Of a stretch of 64,000 nucleotides of DNA, positions 8,228 to 35,242 are shown one piece after another. The translations under genes were made by a program, and so were the position numbers. Origin of the DNA: Viridothelium virens (lineage: Eukaryota > Ascomycota > Dothideomycetes > Trypetheliales > Trypetheliaceae); assembly GCA_010094025.1 (NCBI GenBank), contig ML991862.1:32327-96326 (forward strand). The letters are read 5' to 3'. The notes beneath the pieces were generated by a model. It saw only the letters and a list, made by a program, of their open reading frames with translations, did not search any database and was not told the DNA's origin. Position 1 is the stretch's first letter, and every line of letters begins with the position of its first letter.

Positions 8228-9676
8228 TTAGACAATCCTGTTCAATCGACACCTAACACAAAGCCGCATGCCACAGTCGGGACACTCCAACAACCATCTG
8301 TAGTTCGTCCCGCAGAATACACACGGTCCCGCGAAGCCATGCCTCGTGCGAGTCCAGTCATTCCCGACGGCATGGCCACACACATGAGGATCATTCTGGA
8401 AGCCGCGGTTTCGTGCAGCTGTAGCTCGTTCCTCTTGCGCCACTTGTCGGTTACGTTCATCTAGCAGACGGTCCTCTTCGAATTGTGGGCAATTACAGGT
8501 CTTCCACCGTGCGCCGCAGAGATAGCAGAATTGGTTTTTACAGAGACAGCTAGCATTGGTTAGCAGAGCATTCAAGAAGGGAATGAGTAACGCGTAGATC
8601 AAGCATGGGGCTTGGAATAGATATCCTTTGCATCTCTCGACGACTTCTTTCCCAAGGCTTGGTAACGATAAGAATTGAAGGGTTCCTTACGTCATATGGA
8701 AACATCCTATGCTCAATTCGATCATACGTCTGCAGCTTGTGCATCGTTTCCAGCCTTTGTCGCCTGCTAGACGTACAACCGATCGAATCTCAGGATCTTG
8801 TGGGCAGTCCTCCCCTTGGTGACTTTCTTGTTTGCAAAAGGCACATGTTTCTGTATTGCACTCCAAACAGACAGCAACGTTGTTCTGAATATCCGGCTGA
8901 GGAATGAACGTGGAACAGGACGGATTGCAACAGTATGTCCTATTTTCAGTGTTGAACTCGACCGATTTATTGAGGAAATTGAGAGTTGCTTCCGGTGTGA
9001 GGAATTTTTGCACTGTCTCGAGAGGTATTGGGTTCCTGCAGCACCGGGGTGGATAGAGTGATTCGTCTTTTGTCGCCATCTCGAACAGTTGAGCGGCACA
9101 ATTGTTGCAATAGACATGATGCTCGGGCTCACACGAGAGCTCGATTGTCTCGTGTGTGGGAAACGTCTCGTCGCAGATAATGCAAGTACTCCTAGGGAGT
9201 CCCACTTCTGTCTTCGACAATTCGGCATGGCTCCAGGAGAGAGATGCTAAAGTGGCGAGAGAGTCATCTAGGACTGGCCCCTCAGAAAACTGGTCCGTAT
9301 CGGGAATGTCAACAGCGGAGCCTCCGCGACGGTACGAGCCGTTGTGGCGTGCGAGCTGTCTTTCAATAGGCCTCTTTCGTTTACGCAGTCCAGCAAATCG
9401 AAGAGCAAGTTCATGGTCCCGAACAGCTTGCTCCTCTGCAATAAGAGCTTCCTCGATCGCCGGCACGTCTTCTCGGCACGCGCGAGATAGGCCGCAGGCA
9501 ACACGGCGGTCCTGCAAAAGCTGCAGTTGGTGTCGCAGCACCTTCAATGTCTCACTAAAGGCAATTTCGCTGTCACGAAAGTCTTCGCTCAAACGATTAG
9601 CTTCGCTGAGCGCGATTTCGTTTTGGGCGTCCTCAATGAAAAGCTTGAAGACAAGCTCTACCTCCTCAGCATCCAT
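8228..9676 (-). CDS. RBR (RING-IBR-RING) E3 ubiquitin ligase, copy 1, intact
   Basis: There are two exons, 9676-8691 and 8549-8228, giving 435 residues. The intron starts GTAAGG and ends GCTAG, and splits the RING2 codons so that GCFHMT joins CLCKNQFCYLCG. A helical N-terminal region of about 160 residues precedes RING1 (CIICDETF...CNNCAAQLF...PPRCC), then the IBR (YCCNPSCSTFI...CLECNTETCAFC) and RING2 (CTSCRRMIELSIGC). In RBR ligases the RING2 cysteine in the GC(F/Y)H motif accepts ubiquitin from E2 and passes it on; here it is the C of GCFHMTC. A further Cys-rich C-terminal segment follows (CVFCGTNYRWLLECPDCG). It is the intact member of a three-copy cluster. The substrate is unknown. Confidence 0.9.
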
Positions 9677-10507
9677 ACTCTACCAAGCCAGCAGCGGGAT
9701 CAGGAAAACAGGAATTGAGAGCAAAACCCCTCACTACAAGTAAAGCTGTGGGCCAAAGGTTAGGAAAACGAAATGCTACTGCTGGTAGACGTTGTCAATC
9801 AAGTGGTCTCGCAAACCTTAGCGTAAGGCTGAAACGATGGGGCTAATGATGCCGGGCAATGTTTGAGGGGTACATGGTCAAATTTCGTTGCTGGTCACAG
9901 CCTCAGAATATGCTGTGAACAAAGGGGATCCAATCGCAGAGGCTACGAAGCTTGCAGGTCACACACGTGGAAGATCTCGAGGTGGAGCAAGGAAGGCAAG
10001 GCTTCTTGGAACAAAGCGTTGCCGGAAATTTGCCGGAAACCCCCGGAAGTCTGCTGAAGACAGGACTGCGATTCTACTAATGTTTATGTTCACAAAATCT
10101 CTTGAGCGCTCTTCAAGCTCGACTACGTCAACATACACAAGATCCACAGTCATTTGCACTCTGGCATCATTACATAGGTCTCTAAAATGATGTGTTTGGA
10201 TGCTCCGCCCCGAGTAGTGTCGTCCTTGTCTCCATTACCTTTGCCTCTAGCTCTTCTGCCTCCCACTTCGAATGAGAATCGCGGATTGCGAGACATGTGC
10301 CTCTTCACCAGAGCAATCGCAAGAGTATAGCGCTAATAGTGTGCAAACAGGTGTGGTGGTGGGGTGAAACCAGACTGATGGCGCAAGAAGTGCGCAGAGC
10401 ACGGTGTGTGGAGTTCCGGGAATTCTCCTCTCGACGCTCGTTCCGCGCTTCATCAGAAGATTCTTCTTGACAGTACGATAATTTTTATACTGCAATTGAG
10501 ACCGCTA
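9677..10507. other. intergenic, no gene seen
   Basis: This gap separates the 5' end of RBR copy 1 from the 3' end of the membrane protein gene. Only short frames without motifs are visible. It should hold the RBR1 promoter, but I see no specific site. Confidence 0.6.
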
Positions 10508-13443: not shown

Positions 13444-14268
13444 CACAAAGGTTGAGCAGTGTGGCTGAAAACAATAAACCCGGTCAGCCGTCGAGAATTC
13501 AATCGCCTTATCCAAGAATACTGCAACGAGCTCACGGGAGAGAAAATCTTGAACGTCTTCCAGGTCGATCGGTTTCTTACAGCAGCGCGGGGGTTAAAGC
13601 TGCTCATCCACTATGCTCTTCTCAAACAGCTTCACAACACAGTTGCGACACCACGTATGCGGTTCCGGATCGCAGGGCAATTGAACCGAGTCAAAAACGA
13701 GGACTAGATCTCCGCAAGGTACACAGCGAGCCCGATTGACAGCTCCCTCAGCCTTCTTGGCCATGGAGGCCGAGTGACTGCAGGCAGCTGCGTGGCTGGA
13801 TTCTGCTGTTTCGACGGGATGATCGGGGAAGGAGAACGCAGATGAAGCAACTGAAATACTAGAACTGTCATGCTGTTGTGATTCTTTGGCGCTGTTCGGT
13901 ACTGGAACCAAGATCGGTTCCAAACGTCCATCGGAGGTGCTGGTATCATTTGGCTCAGCTGATTGAGGAGGCACGCGCATGCGCGCGCGGCAAAGTGCCA
14001 TGTCATGGTCCTGGTTTGCTTGTTCTTCTTGGGAAATGAGTTCCACTACCATGCCAGCATCCTCCACATAAGCTCGATTCATGCTTGTGGCGAGTCTCTT
14101 GTCTTGGTAGAACTGCAAATCCATACGGAACTCTTCTAGCTGGGTTTCGAGGGTAAACTCCGAATCGGAAATGACACCTTCTCGTTATTTACCCTTGTCG
14201 TGGGCTAGCAGATCCTCAATATCTTGCGTGTGGATCTCGAGCCTTAAATTTGCAGATTCTGGACCCAT
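13444..14268 (-). pseudogene. RBR E3 ligase copy 2, truncated with in-frame stops
   Basis: This stretch aligns with RBR copies 1 and 3 from the start Met (MGPESANLRLE against MDLATAELVTK) through the helical region, RING1 (RCVPCGDL...WCRNCVVKLFEKS) and into the IBR (YCFQPHCSTFV). It carries two in-frame TAA codons, at 14185-14187 and 13594-13596. The second replaces the Tyr of the motif LYPPRCC found in copy 1, and the same frame continues with PPRCCKKPID. Similarity stops after CSTFV near 13444, so the rest of the IBR and the whole of RING2 with its catalytic cysteine are missing. It cannot make an active RBR ligase. Confidence 0.85.
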
Positions 14269-15253: not shown

Positions 15254-16686
15254 CTAATTGACCTTGGTCAAACGGCAGCTGCGGCAGATCCGAATACTAC
15301 ATCGAGGACATTGCATGAGCCAAGGATTGTCCCTTCTGCACATCCTACAAGCACCCCCTTCAGCCCGGGCCCAAGTACCAGCACCACGAGCATGATCGCA
15401 GGCACTTTGCTGTTGTTCCACCTCCTGCGCCCTCGCCGCCGCCGCTGCCGCTCTCTGATTCCTCGCCGCCGTCTCGCCGTCTCGTTGGGCACGGAAGACG
15501 ACTCGTCCCTTATCCGCCTGCGGACAGGAGCATGATTTCCACCTTGCCCCGCAGATGTAACAGAAACCGTTTCCACAGTAGCATCTGCAAAATGTTAGCC
15601 TTGTGCTTTTGCTTCTCTTCTGAGAAAGTCCAAGGCGCCTTACGATACATGGTAGCAACCAACAATCAGCTCAACCATGCGGCCGCACTCTGTGCACCTG
15701 CGCCAGCCCTCCTCCTCTGCGATTCTCATCACAGATTGAACTGCAGGATCCTCGGAACAGTCATCCTTCTCGTGCATCTCTCGCTTGCATGATGGACAAG
15801 TCGTCGATTTGCAATCCGGGCACGTTGCGACCCCACCCTTGATGTTGGTTTTTGGGATGAAAGCTGAACAGGTTGGCTGGTAGCAGTAGGTTCGATCCAC
15901 TGTACTGTATTCGGTTGCTTTCTTTAGGAATTGGCTCTTTAGCTCAGGGGCGAGGAATTGATCAGCCATCTCCATGGGAATTGGATTGTGGCAACAGGTA
16001 GGAGGAGAAGACTGTTCATCTCATGTCGCAAGGTCGAACACTCGTACCATGCAGTCACCACACCAGACATGAGGCTTCGGCTTGCAATCTAGGGTAGTCG
16101 ACTCAGTAGGATTCGTCGAATTGGCGCAAATGTCACATTCCGTACGATCGTTTGCGGGCTCTTCTGCGCGACGCGTAGGTCCAGCATAAGACCGTCGGCC
16201 TTGTCCACTGGCTTCGTTGTTTTCGTCACGCCCTCGCTTCTTCGGGACTACAGAAAACAGGGAGGCTGCCTGGTGTTCATTGATTTCAATCTTGCCGATT
16301 GTAGAACTCTGCGGCTCTAGAGACAGCCCACCGGAACCAACAACTCGCTGAACGGTGTTCGCTGTATTGTGGAGGACATTGTCAGGTCTGTTGCACATGC
16401 CGGCTGGTCGCAGTGCCATATCATGATCGTGTGCTGCCTCGTCTTCGCTGGCAAGAGCTTCTCGGATAGCCCCCATATCTTCGTGACATGCATTGTTAAT
16501 GCCAATGGCGATTCGCCGATCTTCGAAGAGTTTTAGCTGATCGTGAAGGGAAGTTAGGTGCTCCGAGTAAACAAAATCGGCGCCTGGTAGGTCATGCTCG
16601 TGCGGGTTTCCGTTTGCCTGGCTTCGCAGTCCTTCGACATCTTCTACCAGGAGTTTGGTGACAAGCTCGGCTGTTGCTAGGTCCAT
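15254..16686 (-). pseudogene. RBR E3 ligase copy 3, complete but with one in-frame TGA
   Basis: There are two exons, 16686-15644 and 15584-15254, with a 59-nt intron (GTAAGG...TTTGCAG) at the same place as in copy 1. The 457-codon frame has RING1 (CDICANST...WCGDCMVRVFD), IBR (YCYQPTCSAFI...CPDCKSTTCPSC) and RING2 (CTECGRMVELIVGCYH, then SCYCGNGFCYICG) with the catalytic cysteine in place. Codon 222 (16021-16023) is TGA, where copy 1 has Lys in ATKDES. A single C to T change in CGA would explain it. Both halves remain open around the stop, so decay is recent, or the stop is bypassed, or it is a strain-specific or assembly error. If read as two products, only a RING1-lacking fragment or a RING2-lacking fragment would result. 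Confidence 0.75.
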
Positions 16687-17997
16687 AGCCAATTTATGTC
16701 AAATAGCCTAGGGCTAAGAAAAAGAGGAGTGTCCGACGAAATATTCTGCTGCAAACTGTGTTCAAAACTCAGAGCTTCTGGTGCCATCGGCAGAGGAATC
16801 AAGAATGGAAAGTGGGGCTTAAGACATTTCGAGGGTTACACAGAAAGGGATGAAAAACGAAATGACATGTCACAGGTCCTGACCGGAGATCGAAGATAAC
16901 CATGGGTGACTTCATTGCAGTATCATCCCAGGCCTTCTGCATCTGCTAAGTAATTCCCACTCTTAATGGAATTGTATGAGATGATACTTGGTTACGAAGA
17001 AACAATGAGATTCGCATGATACGCGTGAATCGGACTCAGTCTCTCCATTTTGCGAATGCTCAGATTAGCCGCTGGTCAGTGTTCTGGTGCGATTACCTTC
17101 AATCAAGCTGTTGCTAGCGGGATAGATCGTGGTAGCGGTGTCATTTTTACGCAAGGTCTTGAATACGTCTGCTCTAAGATTAAGGTTCGGCACCTGGAGA
17201 AGCGAGCTGCTTCGCTAAGGCACGTGGCCGACAATCTGGAGGACAGAAACAGTTGGAAGGTCATAGCAAGCACGTTCCGTATGTAGATCTCGTTACACTC
17301 AAGATCATCTTCTCACCTCTTCACTTGCTCGGCGGCTGATCGGAGTCTCTAGCAACCCCAGCGGCGAGACATCTAATCTTCGAAATCAGATGAGACTGTT
17401 CGTCGTCTAGGAAACGAACTTTTATACGTCATTGTTTGTTTACTACGGCGGCGCAATAGTACCAATTGCCGCTGTAACAGTTTTATTCTACTAACAAACT
17501 TACCGCCGATGCGCGCATCTCAGGGATGGCCAATTGGAAATCTTGAGCATCGATCCCTCGAGGACTAACAATGGAGTAAGTCGCATCTGAGCCAACCTCA
17601 GTAACTCACTATGGTTGAAGTTTTATCCGCAGGCGAAATCTTGTCATCCTCTGCGACTTCGGCGCCATAGATAGCGCGGTCCGCTCGGCAGCATAACTTA
17701 GCTGCCTTACGGAGCAGTCGGAAACAACTCCACCAAGACACGCCAGCTACGCAAGATCCGATCCAAGTGCCGGCTTAGCCACACACCTTTTCCCGTCTTT
17801 GATTGTCAAGATGGGCAATCGACACCACCACATTCAGTTTCCCTTTCTGAGATGGTACGAGCGCGCTGGCAGATTCGTAGCCGTAGCCAGATCCGCAGCA
17901 ATCAAGTACAACTCGGCTCGAGATTACAATAGTGAGGGGTTTAGCATGACCAATAATTAGTCTCATTATGTCGTAATAGAGCTTCTATGTTGCTTTG
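16687..17997. other. intergenic, no gene seen
   Basis: This is a divergent promoter region between RBR copy 3 (-) and the aldehyde dehydrogenase (+). Short frames occur (for example near 17050-17286) but show no family motif. Confidence 0.55.
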
Positions 17998-30461: not shown

Positions 30462-32282
30462 ATGCACCCATCTAGACAAGCGTATGTGGAGGAAGCGGAA
30501 CCCGAGGTAAGCTGAAAATCTTCCTGAGGTTGCTGTTGCAAATCTGGTTTCTCAACTCTACCTAGAGGGACCCATTCCCTTCGCAGGTCCGCCAGAGGCG
30601 CAGTTCGAGGTGGGCGCAAAGCTTGAAAAATGACTGATGGATTTGGCTGGTACTTTAGGAATCGGAGGGTGTCAATCTGTCAAACATTCGTATGTCAATC
30701 AGATCTTCTGGTGCTTGTGTATTCTTTGGGTACTAACAATATATCTTTAGCTATCGACCGCGACTATGAGATATCTGGTGGTATTTCGGGTGTAGCCCCT
30801 GAAAAGGCTTCTGCCATTTTACAGCAGATCGAACGGAAGCGCTTCGCGAAGACGATCGCAGTACCCACCGACGATGGTCGAGTTAGAGCGCGGTTACGAG
30901 AGCTCGGAGAACCGATTACCCTCTTCGGCGAAGGACCAGGAGATAGGCGCGACAGGCTACGTGAGCTTCTTGCAGATCGAGCAGCCGGTGATGAAGATGG
31001 AGACGCAATCATGCAGGATGCTGCGGCGCAAGAAGAAGATAATGAGGCAAACGAAGAGTTTTATACCGAGGGGTCTCCAGAGCTACTTAGCATTCGTAAA
31101 GACATCTCACGATATTCATTACCTCGAGCACGCGACCGGATAGTACAACAGAAAAAAGAGTCCACAATACCCCTCCGCGTACATGTCAATCATCGGAAAG
31201 CTATCAAAGAAAAGCTGACAGGGTTCGAATTATATGGTTCGCAAGTGGCTGCCGAACGTCCCATTAGTATCGCGCGCTTCTCACCTTCCGGACAAATAGT
31301 TGCAGCGGGACACTTCGGAGGTGGCATTCAATTTCTTTCTGTTCCCAACCTTGATAAGACACAAACACTGCGTGGTCATACTGGTCGAGTTGGTGGAATT
31401 GCTTGGTTCCCACGTGCCACCCTTCCATCCAGTACCGTTTCCTCTTCTGCCGTCAACCTCGCATCCGGCGGCGGTGAAGGCGATAATGAAGTCCATCTCT
31501 GGTCTCTTGATGGAGAGACACCTTTGTCTACTCTATCAGGTCACAGTGGTCGGGTCGCGCGAGTAGAGTTCCATCCATCTGGTCGCTATCTTGCAAGTGC
31601 TAGTCATGATACTACATGGCGACTGTGGGACGTTGCCACTACCACTGAGCTCTTGCTTCAAGAAGGCCACAGCTTGGGGGTCCATACAGTATCTTTCAAC
31701 CCAGATGGATCTTTACTGGCATCCGCTGGCCTTGACAGCATTGGTCGTATATGGGACCTCAGAACCGGTCGTAACGTCATGATATTGGAAGGCCATATTA
31801 AAGAGATAGCTGGTCTGGACTGGGGTCCGGACTGTTACCGTGTGCTCACAGGATCCACGGATGGATTCGTAAAGTGCTGGGATGTCAGAGCTGTGAGAGA
31901 GACCGCGAGCATTGGTGCAAACAAAGGCGGTGTGACAGATTTAAGGTGGTTCAAGGGGAGCACGTCGTCACCAACGTCCAAAATGACTATACATGATGAC
32001 GGTGAGACCAATGGAGCCGATAACGAGCAATGCACAGACAAGGCTCCCGATTCCCAATCTGAGATCGTTCCCAAGAAGTCAGGCACCTTCTTCATTTCAA
32101 GTGGGTTGGACAAGAAAATCAATATATTCTCGGCGGATGATTGGGCGCTATGCAAGTCTCTTGGTGGCCATTCAGGCAACGTCTTCTCCACCGATGTCAC
32201 GGATGATGCTCGATGGGTTCTGAGCAGTGGCTATGATCGTACGGTCAAGCTGTGGGCGCGAGATGATTGCGAAGGCATTTGA
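30462..32282 (+). CDS. PRP4: U4/U6 snRNP protein Prp4 (WD40)
   Basis: There are four exons: 30462-30506, 30568-30609, 30659-30689 and 30751-32282 (549 residues). Three small N-terminal exons give MHPSRQAYVEEAEPE, GPIPFAGPPEAQFE and ESEGVNLSNIPIDRDYEISG, matching the family. A second in-frame ATG lies three bases earlier (30459). The Prp4 splicing-factor motif (VPTDDGRVRARLRELGEPIT) is followed by a seven-bladed WD40 propeller, with blades such as LSGHSGRVARVEFHPSGRYL and LEGHIKEIAGLDWGPDCYRV. Prp4 with Prp3 stabilises U4/U6 in the tri-snRNP and is needed for spliceosome activation. The last blades are separated by an acidic loop (TIHDDGETNGADNEQ). Confidence 0.93.
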
Positions 32283-33857: not shown

Positions 33858-35088
33858 ATTAAGGTTGTTATTCATCAGTTCTTCCGACCCCTGCCTCACA
33901 GGACAATAGATAGATCTGTGATGTGCACGTCATGGGCCATTCACCTACAGCTGTTGAAACACAGTTGACCAAGTAGTCGTAACTCTGTTGACGGGCTTGA
34001 AATGTTGACGGGCACGAAGCGAGACAAAAGTATGGTCACGAAGTGTTCATATCATCTGAGGTTTAGAGGAAGTTATGTACCTAGATACAGAGTGGTGAAA
34101 GTGAAGCAATTGCCCTAGGATAGTCACGTGCCCATGTCCCTCGTTTCCCCCAGGACAAACACAACGCGAAAATTCAAGCCTGCATTTAGGAGAAATAATT
34201 TACCAATGCTTGGGGGTTACTATACGCCAATTAGCGGTCTCTTCGACCCAACTCACGAATTTTCTGCTGGAGATTCAGGCAAATCCGACTCGCTAGAAAT
34301 TTCAAACCCAGGCACCTGAGCGTTCGGTCTTGATGATGAGCTGATCCTCTGATTTTGTTGCGGGCGTTGCACAAGTAAACTTGGGTAAACGATTGTCTAC
34401 GGTTCACGATAATAAAAACACACTGACCTGCTCGTGGGAGTGTAAATGTGATGCTCACCTTCAGATCACTAGTATCGAATTGCAGCGGCAGCTACATCAG
34501 GGCGAAAAACTCTGTTGTTCTAGATAGCTACAGCTAACTATTCAATGACCTCGAAATAAAGGAGATGAAGCCTCTGAGGTGGTCTATACCAATTCGGGCA
34601 AGAATTTACTCTACCACGGACGAGCCAATAGAACCTAGAAATTTTACCCAATGAAGAAGAGGACGAAAGGTAGGCTTCAGGGTCGACAACTAGCACTGCC
34701 CGTTAGTTATAAATCTCTCTCCGTCTCAAGTCTGCGGTACTATAATGAAAACTTCTGATTTCGGCATTATGGTGTCGGTGGACAGTGGGTGTGCGTTGGA
34801 TTGAGCATCCAGACTATTCAGGTTCATTGTCGCAAGCTTTCTCAGGTACAGTTGGGCAAGGTGGGAAAGATGGATCTCTAAGGTTGCGGTTGGTCAACTT
34901 CAACCCTTTACTCTAACCTCGCCAAAGCGCAGAAGTACAAGCGCAAAAGAGAGAACTTGTCGAGTGATATCCATCCACATACATGCTCCCGTAGACTCTA
35001 CGCGACTCCAAGCAATTGCAGAAGACGAATATACAAAAAATGTTGGATGGTAAAATACGATTCCAAAATGATATATTGTTAAGATTTA
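33858..35088. other. intergenic, AT-rich, no gene seen
   Basis: About 1.2 kb of AT-rich sequence between the MITE-like element and the tRNA gene. Only short frames. Confidence 0.6.
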
Positions 35089-35132
35089 ATTTTACCACTA
35101 AACCATGAGCATCAGTGGTTTAGTGGTAAAAT
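35089..35132. repeat. perfect 17-bp inverted repeat copying the tRNA D-arm
   Basis: 35089-35105 is the exact reverse complement of 35116-35132 (TGGTTTAGTGGTAAAAT), separated by ten bases. The right arm is the D-arm of the tRNA-Gly gene and includes its A box. The left arm lies upstream of the tRNA 5' end, so a piece of the tRNA gene exists head-to-head with itself. Similarity stops at the point where the tRNA is interrupted. Confidence 0.9.
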
Positions 35133-35230
35133 GTAAGCTAGCCCAAATGAGTGAAGGAAGTACGTGGACTAATCAGCGCATAGCCGTCGTTGCCATCGAC
35201 GGGCCCCGTGTTCGATTCACGGCTGATGCA
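35109..35230 (+). tRNA. tRNA-Gly(GCC), interrupted by a 51-nt GT-AG insertion
   Basis: Parts 35109-35132 and 35184-35230 together form a 71-nt tRNA-Gly. The acceptor GCATCAG pairs with CTGATGC, the D-arm is GTTT/AAAT, the anticodon stem CGTCG/CGACG encloses loop TTGCCAT (anticodon GCC), and the T-arm CCGTG/CACGG encloses TTCGATT. The two pieces match the known yeast tRNA-Gly layout. The insertion 35133-35183 lies before the anticodon stem, not at the usual 37/38 intron site. It starts GTAAGC, contains GACTAAT 12 bases from its end, and ends CATAG. A box and B box are intact and a T9 run follows at 35234-35242. All stems pair, so the gene does not look decayed, but whether the insertion is removed is unknown. 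Confidence 0.85.
35133..35183 (+). other. spliceosomal-intron-like insertion in tRNA-Gly
   Basis: These 51 bases have a canonical donor (GTAAGC), a branch-point-like GACTAAT and a TAG acceptor. Length is in the range of mRNA introns in this window (47-62 nt for most). Its borders coincide exactly with the point where comparison to yeast tRNA-Gly (AAAAT then CC) is interrupted. Confidence 0.75.
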
Positions 35231-35233
35231 ATA

Positions 35234-35242
35234 TTTTTTTTT
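35234..35242 (+). terminator. Pol III terminator of tRNA-Gly
   Basis: A run of nine T residues starts four bases after the mature 3' end, as expected for RNA polymerase III termination. Confidence 0.8.

Follow-up and report, generated by a model that had tools for sequence, protein, structure and literature searches.

An interrupted tRNA-Gly gene

The window, that is, the whole stretch of 64,000 nucleotides of Viridothelium virens DNA that we analyzed, carries on its forward strand a tRNA-Gly(GCC) gene (35109-35230) whose exons are split by a 51-nt insert. Exon 1 (35109-35132, +) holds the 5' half of the acceptor stem, the D-arm and the A box, and over its last 19 nt it does not differ from the paralogue described below; exon 2 (35184-35230, +), which is 96% identical to that paralogue over its last 46 nt, comprises the anticodon arm, the T-arm with the B box, the 3' half of the acceptor stem and A73. 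An earlier note on this DNA had claimed that removal of 35133-35183 leaves an intact tRNA-Gly(GCC), and this holds: the joined exons form a 71-nt cloverleaf with 7/7 acceptor pairs, 5/5 T-stem pairs and a fully paired anticodon arm (loop TTGCCAT), and both the A box TGGTTTAGTGG and the B box TGTTCGATTCA are intact. The T9 terminator that the note reported is also present, as a run of nine T residues at 35234-35242 (+), a putative Pol III terminator.

The insert (35133-35183, +; GTAAGC...GTGGACTAATCAGCGCATAG) lies between the D-arm and the anticodon arm, as had been described, and more precisely between nucleotides 25 and 26. It starts with the donor GTAAGC, bears the branch-like sequence GGACTAAT and ends in ATAG. 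The GACTAAT noticed earlier near its end occupies 35167-35173 (+), which would place the presumed branch A at 35172, with the last intron base 11 nt further; this motif is enriched over the 28 introns measured below. The canonical 37/38 site is occupied neither by this insert nor by any of those 28 introns. Compared with shuffled sequences, the joined exons fold better (z = -2.4), the insert alone folds worse (z = +1.9) and the unspliced 122-nt RNA folds about equally well (z = -0.8). Cloverleaf exons apparently under selection, A and B boxes and a T-run, the marks of a functional Pol III gene, can all be recognized in the sequence. The gene is nevertheless missed by ARAGORN without introns, which predicts no tRNA in the window, and by Rfam at the gathering threshold, which returns no match there; with introns allowed, ARAGORN miscalls it as Ile(AAT).

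Just upstream of the gene, a 24-nt stretch of the reverse strand (35082-35105, -) repeats part of exon 1 and the first bases of the intron in inverted orientation; it is 88% complementary to 35116-35139, from which a 10-nt spacer separates it. The idea that this repeat is a copy of spliced RNA was dropped: it continues past the exon border into the intron, with mismatches. Judged by eye, the inverted repeat is absent at the paralogue. Elsewhere in the window, an ORF with PRP4 and WD40 domains (30627-32282, +) likely encodes a U4/U6 snRNP protein; it lies about 3 kb from the interrupted tRNA gene, a nearness that is, as far as can be told, a coincidence. Three ORFs on the reverse strand (8687-9679, 13594-14184 and 16021-16698, -) have similar N-termini, with a Pfam IBR match in the first only, and perhaps form a small local family.

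Comparison of paralogues

A whole-gene search of the assembly (30.7 Mb, 175 contigs, the window lying on C92) returned one further Gly(GCC) place (G000:C12:4393-4517), and a query made of the joined exons recovered the same two genes only; both searches give lower bounds on copy number. The earlier note had proposed a comparison with other Gly(GCC) genes: the sole paralogue found, on C12, is interrupted as well, by a 50-nt insert (GTAAGTTGAG...TTGACCAACATAG; donor GTAAGT) at a position identical to that in the window gene. Since the insert recurs at the same position, the interruption is more than chance. No intron-free Gly(GCC) copy was found in the assembly by searches with the gene, the joined exons or the 5' half. 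The 5'-half search, allowing up to 3 mismatches, gave 59 matches versus 69 for a reversed control: the two exact matches are the two Gly(GCC) genes themselves, one match with a single mismatch is the inverted upstream copy, and the remaining 56 have 2 or 3 mismatches; ten of the 59, those with loci, were examined by the cloverleaf solver described below.

Between the two Gly(GCC) genes the exons agree at 66/71 positions and the introns at 34/52 aligned columns. All five exon differences fall in stems and keep pairing: both halves are changed at 4-69 (T-A to A-T) and 26-44 (C-G to T-A), and one half at 5-68 (C-G to T-G). In the Asp(GTC) pair, exons agree at 65/72 positions, the seven differences amounting to three pairs changed on both sides plus one loop change, and introns agree at 38/51. 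Because exon differences keep pairing while introns diverge, selection seems to hold the Gly(GCC) tRNA, leaving the intron body free to drift. The same pairing-preserving changes led us to reject a pseudogene reading, and the decay of this copy, which the earlier note had named as one way in which its reading could fail, is not borne out by the sequence.

Interrupted tRNA genes in the nuclear genome

We assembled a set of nuclear tRNA genes from B-box patterns combined with a cloverleaf solver that permits the removal of GT..AG segments and of a 37/38 intron. Candidate places included those of three B-box searches: the first 100 of 160 places in one, two of which (C35, C36) were left out of the fetched loci; 100 of 115 matches in the second, many of them the same place repeated, from which 13 places were taken by eye; and 96 matches in the third, from which six places were taken. 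Among 61 T-arm candidates scored, 39 reached at least 24, the next scoring 20.5, and the addition of L170, L175 and L176 brought the set to 42 genes, with isotypes assigned from the anticodon (that of L024, which is included, is uncertain). Excluded as not resolvable as intact tRNAs were L157, L163, L164, L166-L168, L171-L174 and L177; L169 was also excluded. Being B-box based, the set is incomplete, and genes for Phe, Tyr, other Leu, Thr(TGT) and Arg(TCG) were not found in this search. With 63 of its 927 candidates scored, the Rfam tRNA model gives at least 30 places at E <= 0.001; C129, which we read from its dense tRNA clusters as the mitochondrial contig, accounts for 16 of these.

Twenty-five of the 42 resolved genes carry a total of 29 GT-AG introns at non-canonical sites. 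A 37/38 intron is present in 30 of the 42, often alongside a GT-AG intron in the same gene, and only Lys(TTT), Cys and Gly(CCC) (3/42) have no intron. The GT-AG introns are 46-64 nt long, with one of 99 nt, and the 37/38 introns 7-39 nt. The former are inserted in the D-loop, the D/anticodon junction, the anticodon arm and the variable region: of the 28 measured, site 12/13 and the D-loop together account for 11, positions 23-27 for 9, positions 30-35 for 6 and the variable region for 2, the last placed by eye. The A box is split by 11 of the 28. Among the genes found, initiator Met, Lys(CTT), Asn and Arg(ACG) are some of those represented by interrupted copies alone.

Individual genes illustrate this diversity of sites. 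Lys(CTT) is interrupted at 12/13 (GTGAGT..ATACTAACTGTAACTAG), where the A box itself is split; initiator Met at 26/27 (GTAAGT..GATACTAATTTGTGCTGCAG); Ser(CGA) at 33/34 (GTGTGT..GAACTAATCGTTATAG), with a 13-nt 37/38 intron in addition; Ser(AGA) in the variable arm (GTGAGT..GGAATTAACAATCTGTAG); Arg(ACG) at 32/33 (GTATGC..ATAACTAACCGTCCATAG); and Thr(CGT) at 26/27. Two GT-AG introns each are predicted in Asn(GTT) (D-loop, GTGAGT..TTACTAATGAGTTGTAG, and 31/32, GTAAGT..TTGACTAATTAACGACAG, plus an 8-nt 37/38 intron), in Arg(TCT) (one of them between anticodon bases 34 and 35), in Gly(TCC) and in Ile(AAT), whose second intron is weak (GTGATT..GAAG). Weak cases are also Trp(CCA) (L031), without a good branch motif, and Ala(CGC) and Val(TAC), both with the donor GTAATT; Val(TAC), which has no +5G and a branch-like CCTAACC, stands outside the 28-intron counts. 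Further GT-AG-interrupted genes are those for Leu(CAA), Leu(TAA), Ser(GCT), Ala(AGC), Pro(CGG), Gln(TTG), Arg(CCT) and elongator Met. In Ala(AGC), Ser(GCT), Arg(TCT), Gly(TCC) and Leu(TAA), the D-loop intron falls within GG (exon ..G|GT..AG|G..), and the donor G completes the A-box GG in the DNA.

At the excluded locus L169 (G000:C63:130560-130860), Lys(CTT) occurs a second time, again interrupted at 12/13 (GTAAGT..AAAACTAACTCTAAATAG) but with a T-loop that is truncated, as judged by eye; this copy is probably a pseudogene with a retained intron. The nuclear tRNA genes (at least 42) are mostly one per anticodon and, together with at least five 5S genes, point to a small translation-RNA gene set, which might suit slow growth.

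Among the best candidates scored for other Pol III genes, at least five full-length 5S matches, at least three U6 matches and at least one SRP RNA match span the whole model uninterrupted; the intron invasion is therefore not general to Pol III genes. One U6 snRNA gene (L178, G000:C38:47440-47760) is preceded by TATATATAT and followed, about 13 nt beyond its end and flanked by two T-runs, by GGTTCGAGTC; the latter resembles a B box and could be an external promoter element like that of tRNA genes.

Intron signals and tests against chance

A GT donor fitting the fungal consensus (GTRNGY-like), an AG acceptor and a YTRAY branch motif are found in this set. Twenty-five of the 28 introns have +5G (3 do not), 25 have C or T at acceptor position -3, and a YTRAY motif is present in 25 and absent from 3, versus a mean of 7.2 and a maximum of 16 in 2000 shuffles. 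Motif scores had helped to pick borders in these first counts, and the choice was repeated by cloverleaf alone, with ties broken at random: borders so chosen among GT..AG segments still give +5G in 22/28 and YTRAY in 24/28, and the first solution is among the cloverleaf-only optima in 23 of 24 genes.

We then asked how special the GT..AG ends are. In the 25 genes that score below 25 without removal (L029 included, which needs only a 37/38 intron), GT..AG removal resolves 22, whereas the other 255 of the 256 possible pairs of end dinucleotides resolve 5.35 on average (sd 2.84, maximum 15), and the runner-up pairs GT/TA, AG/AG and TA/AG resemble one-base slides of GT..AG. When a single segment with any ends is removed, GT..AG comes first, alone or in a tie, for only 8 of 24 genes, and no other pair does so for more than 2; for the remaining 16 genes it ranks 2nd to 183rd in 15 and gives nothing in L074. 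The test permits just one removal and caps the 37/38 intron at 25 nt, which accounts in part for these poor ranks; L074 has a longer one, and several poorly ranked genes are those with two proposed introns or a long 37/38 intron. Real tRNA 3' ends set on random window DNA (840 decoys) peaked at a score of 21.6, short of the 24.2 that the weakest true gene attains, and ordinary 37/38 introns, used as an internal control with the same solver, show GT..AG in 0/28.

The earlier note had also held that the insert matches the mRNA introns of this DNA. This is compatible with what we find, but the comparison rests on the only three mRNA introns mapped on the window, from two annotated proteins: they measure 55, 47 and 141 nt, next to 46-64 nt (one of 99 nt) for the tRNA-gene introns; their donors are GTAGGT, GTGTGG and GTAAGG, and their branch-like motifs CTGAT, CTAAT and CTAAC. 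One of the two proteins, a V. virens dynein intermediate chain of 722 aa that is 100% identical to a window ORF over 95% of this ORF, maps in full with two introns; the second likewise points to V. virens. Among the tRNA-gene introns themselves, similarity reaches 0.75 for Asp/Asp, 0.71 for Ser(GCT)/Gly(TCC) and 0.65 for Gly/Gly, with a median of 0.54. A mobile repeated intron ('introner') was rejected, as the 141-nt gene query found only the Gly(GCC) paralogue and the most similar intron pairs are no closer than this; group I or II introns were rejected as well, 46-99 nt presumably being far too short for either.

Proposed processing of the introns and alternative explanations

The best reading of the window insert is the one that the earlier note had suggested, a spliceosomal intron inserted into a tRNA gene; 25 of the 42 resolved genes share this feature, with 29 such introns in all. 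We consider it very likely that the tRNA-Gly(GCC) gene is a functional Pol III gene and that its insert is a spliceosomal intron (U2-type, GT-AG) belonging to a set found across the genome; the splicing of the predicted introns is deduced from their sequence. Pol III would transcribe the whole gene up to the T-run, and the spliceosome, recognizing the intron in this pre-tRNA by its donor, branch site and acceptor, would join the exons; tRNA endonuclease and ligase would take out the 37/38 intron where present, and normal maturation would follow.

A relaxed tRNA splicing endonuclease, cutting bulge-helix-bulge junctions at non-canonical sites, could produce ectopic introns too. Such introns, sometimes several per gene, are known in a red alga, nucleomorphs and archaea (PMC4090602, PMC3978253), many of those in nucleomorphs are without a defined bulge-helix-bulge (PMC3978253), and V. 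virens has plentiful ordinary 37/38 introns (30/42 genes). However, the central helix (4 bp), the part of the motif that was tested, is complete in 0/28 inserts, as against 2.4% of mismatched controls, with 1.71 pairs on average versus 1.84; for this reason the tRNA endonuclease is unlikely as the cutter. The conserved features are instead the intron ends and the branch motif, and the Gly(GCC) intron is less structured than its shuffles. We judge this explanation improbable. We give less credence still to the idea that the interrupted genes are decaying or dead copies with insertions and that functional tRNAs come from missed intron-free genes. Some fragments do look dead by eye (L169, with part of its Lys(CTT) T-loop gone, and the degraded L164 and L168), the assembly is possibly incomplete, and the genome search scores best candidates only; yet stem changes in the paralogue pairs preserve pairing, 42 genes form good cloverleaves, no intron-free Gly(GCC) was found, and initiator Met and many others were found only as interrupted copies.

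The least probable of the alternatives is, in our view, that the introns are spliceosomal but that the substrate is Pol II read-through yielding little or no tRNA, with Pol III transcripts left unspliced. Pol II transcripts are the normal substrate of the spliceosome, and the split A box of 11/28 introns would fit this idea. Against it speak the essential nature of the tRNAs interrupted here, the U6 introns that show spliceosome action on Pol III RNA, and the position of the T-runs: a T4 run starts 0-46 nt after the 3' end in 42/42 genes and at most 12 nt from it in 34/42, TTTT within about 50 nt having been a search condition for 39. Lichen introns, moreover, were removed from Pol I transcripts by yeast (PMC8527467).

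If the inserts are spliceosomal introns of Pol III genes, they probably spread by insertion at protosplice-like sites. Foremost among these would be the G|G of the D-loop, which is conserved and at which the G of the donor can restore the A box; the placement of several inserts there makes reverse splicing a plausible origin. The introns may be tolerated owing to nearly single-copy tRNA genes, among those found, and slow growth. The data suggest that many V. virens tRNAs must pass through the mRNA-splicing machine. With good but lesser confidence, we propose that the majority of tRNA genes in this nucleus, among them that of the initiator, yield tRNA only via the spliceosome, many of them needing two unrelated splicing machines per precursor for about 72 nt of exon; the genes would have undergone wholesale colonization by spliceosomal introns, with reverse splicing into sites of the D-loop and the anticodon arm as the probable route, the 5S, U6 and SRP RNA genes remaining uninterrupted.

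Were this true, the spliceosome would be able to define exons down to 12-15 nt in an uncapped, fast-folding Pol III precursor, and translation capacity would be directly tied to splicing capacity. The species would also offer a natural system for the study of intron gain by reverse splicing, with sites, paralogues and intron-free isoacceptors in one genome, and the lichen-fungus habit of introns in ribosomal RNA genes would extend to a second core translation RNA. Such genes escape tRNA finders, as the invisibility of the window gene to ARAGORN without introns and to Rfam illustrates.

Comparison with known systems

Among the papers listed from the full-text literature, surveyed through titles and abstract openings and lying mostly outside subscription journals and preprints, we recognized no precedent for spliceosomal introns in tRNA genes. 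Reviews of tRNA splicing describe a job done by protein enzymes separate from the spliceosome (PMC4090602, PMC3978253). In the main text of one of them, the string 'spliceosom' is absent, eukaryotic ectopic tRNA introns are named for nucleomorphs and one red alga, and cases from other eukaryotes with a short insertion in the D- or T-arm are regarded as presumed pseudogenes (PMC4090602). The phenomenon seen here is real, extends across the genome and, to judge from this survey, is undescribed.

The U6 snRNA genes of some yeasts contain mRNA-type introns, which are ascribed to reverse splicing events in the spliceosome itself. The likeness is that of a spliceosomal intron in a Pol III transcript, splicing in V. 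virens being predicted; however, the yeast introns concern one gene family, and three U6 matches in V. virens are uninterrupted. A second parallel is offered by the nuclear rDNA of lichen-forming and other ascomycetes, which has spliceosomal introns (Bhattacharya et al. 2000, cited in PMC8527467); V. virens (Trypetheliales, Dothideomycetes) is itself treated as a lichenized species (PMC8809443). Both cases involve GT-AG introns of the mRNA type in a structural RNA gene not transcribed by Pol II, removed by the spliceosome in rDNA and presumably so in the tRNA genes of V. virens. Whereas the rDNA introns are few and belong to Pol I genes, those of V. virens number 29, lie in 25 resolved Pol III tRNA genes and can leave a first exon of only 12 nt.

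Cyanidioschyzon merolae, nucleomorphs and Crenarchaeota share with V. virens non-canonical tRNA positions and several introns per gene, sometimes with a 37/38 intron (PMC4090602, PMC3978253), but their introns are of the bulge-helix-bulge type or short and unexplained, whereas those of V. virens have spliceosomal ends and a branch motif, with no full bulge-helix-bulge helix. Canonical eukaryotic 37/38 introns occur side by side with the GT-AG set in this species and differ from it in position, length and ends. The kind of intron is already known; what appears to be new is the class of host gene, the number of introns and their apparent necessity.
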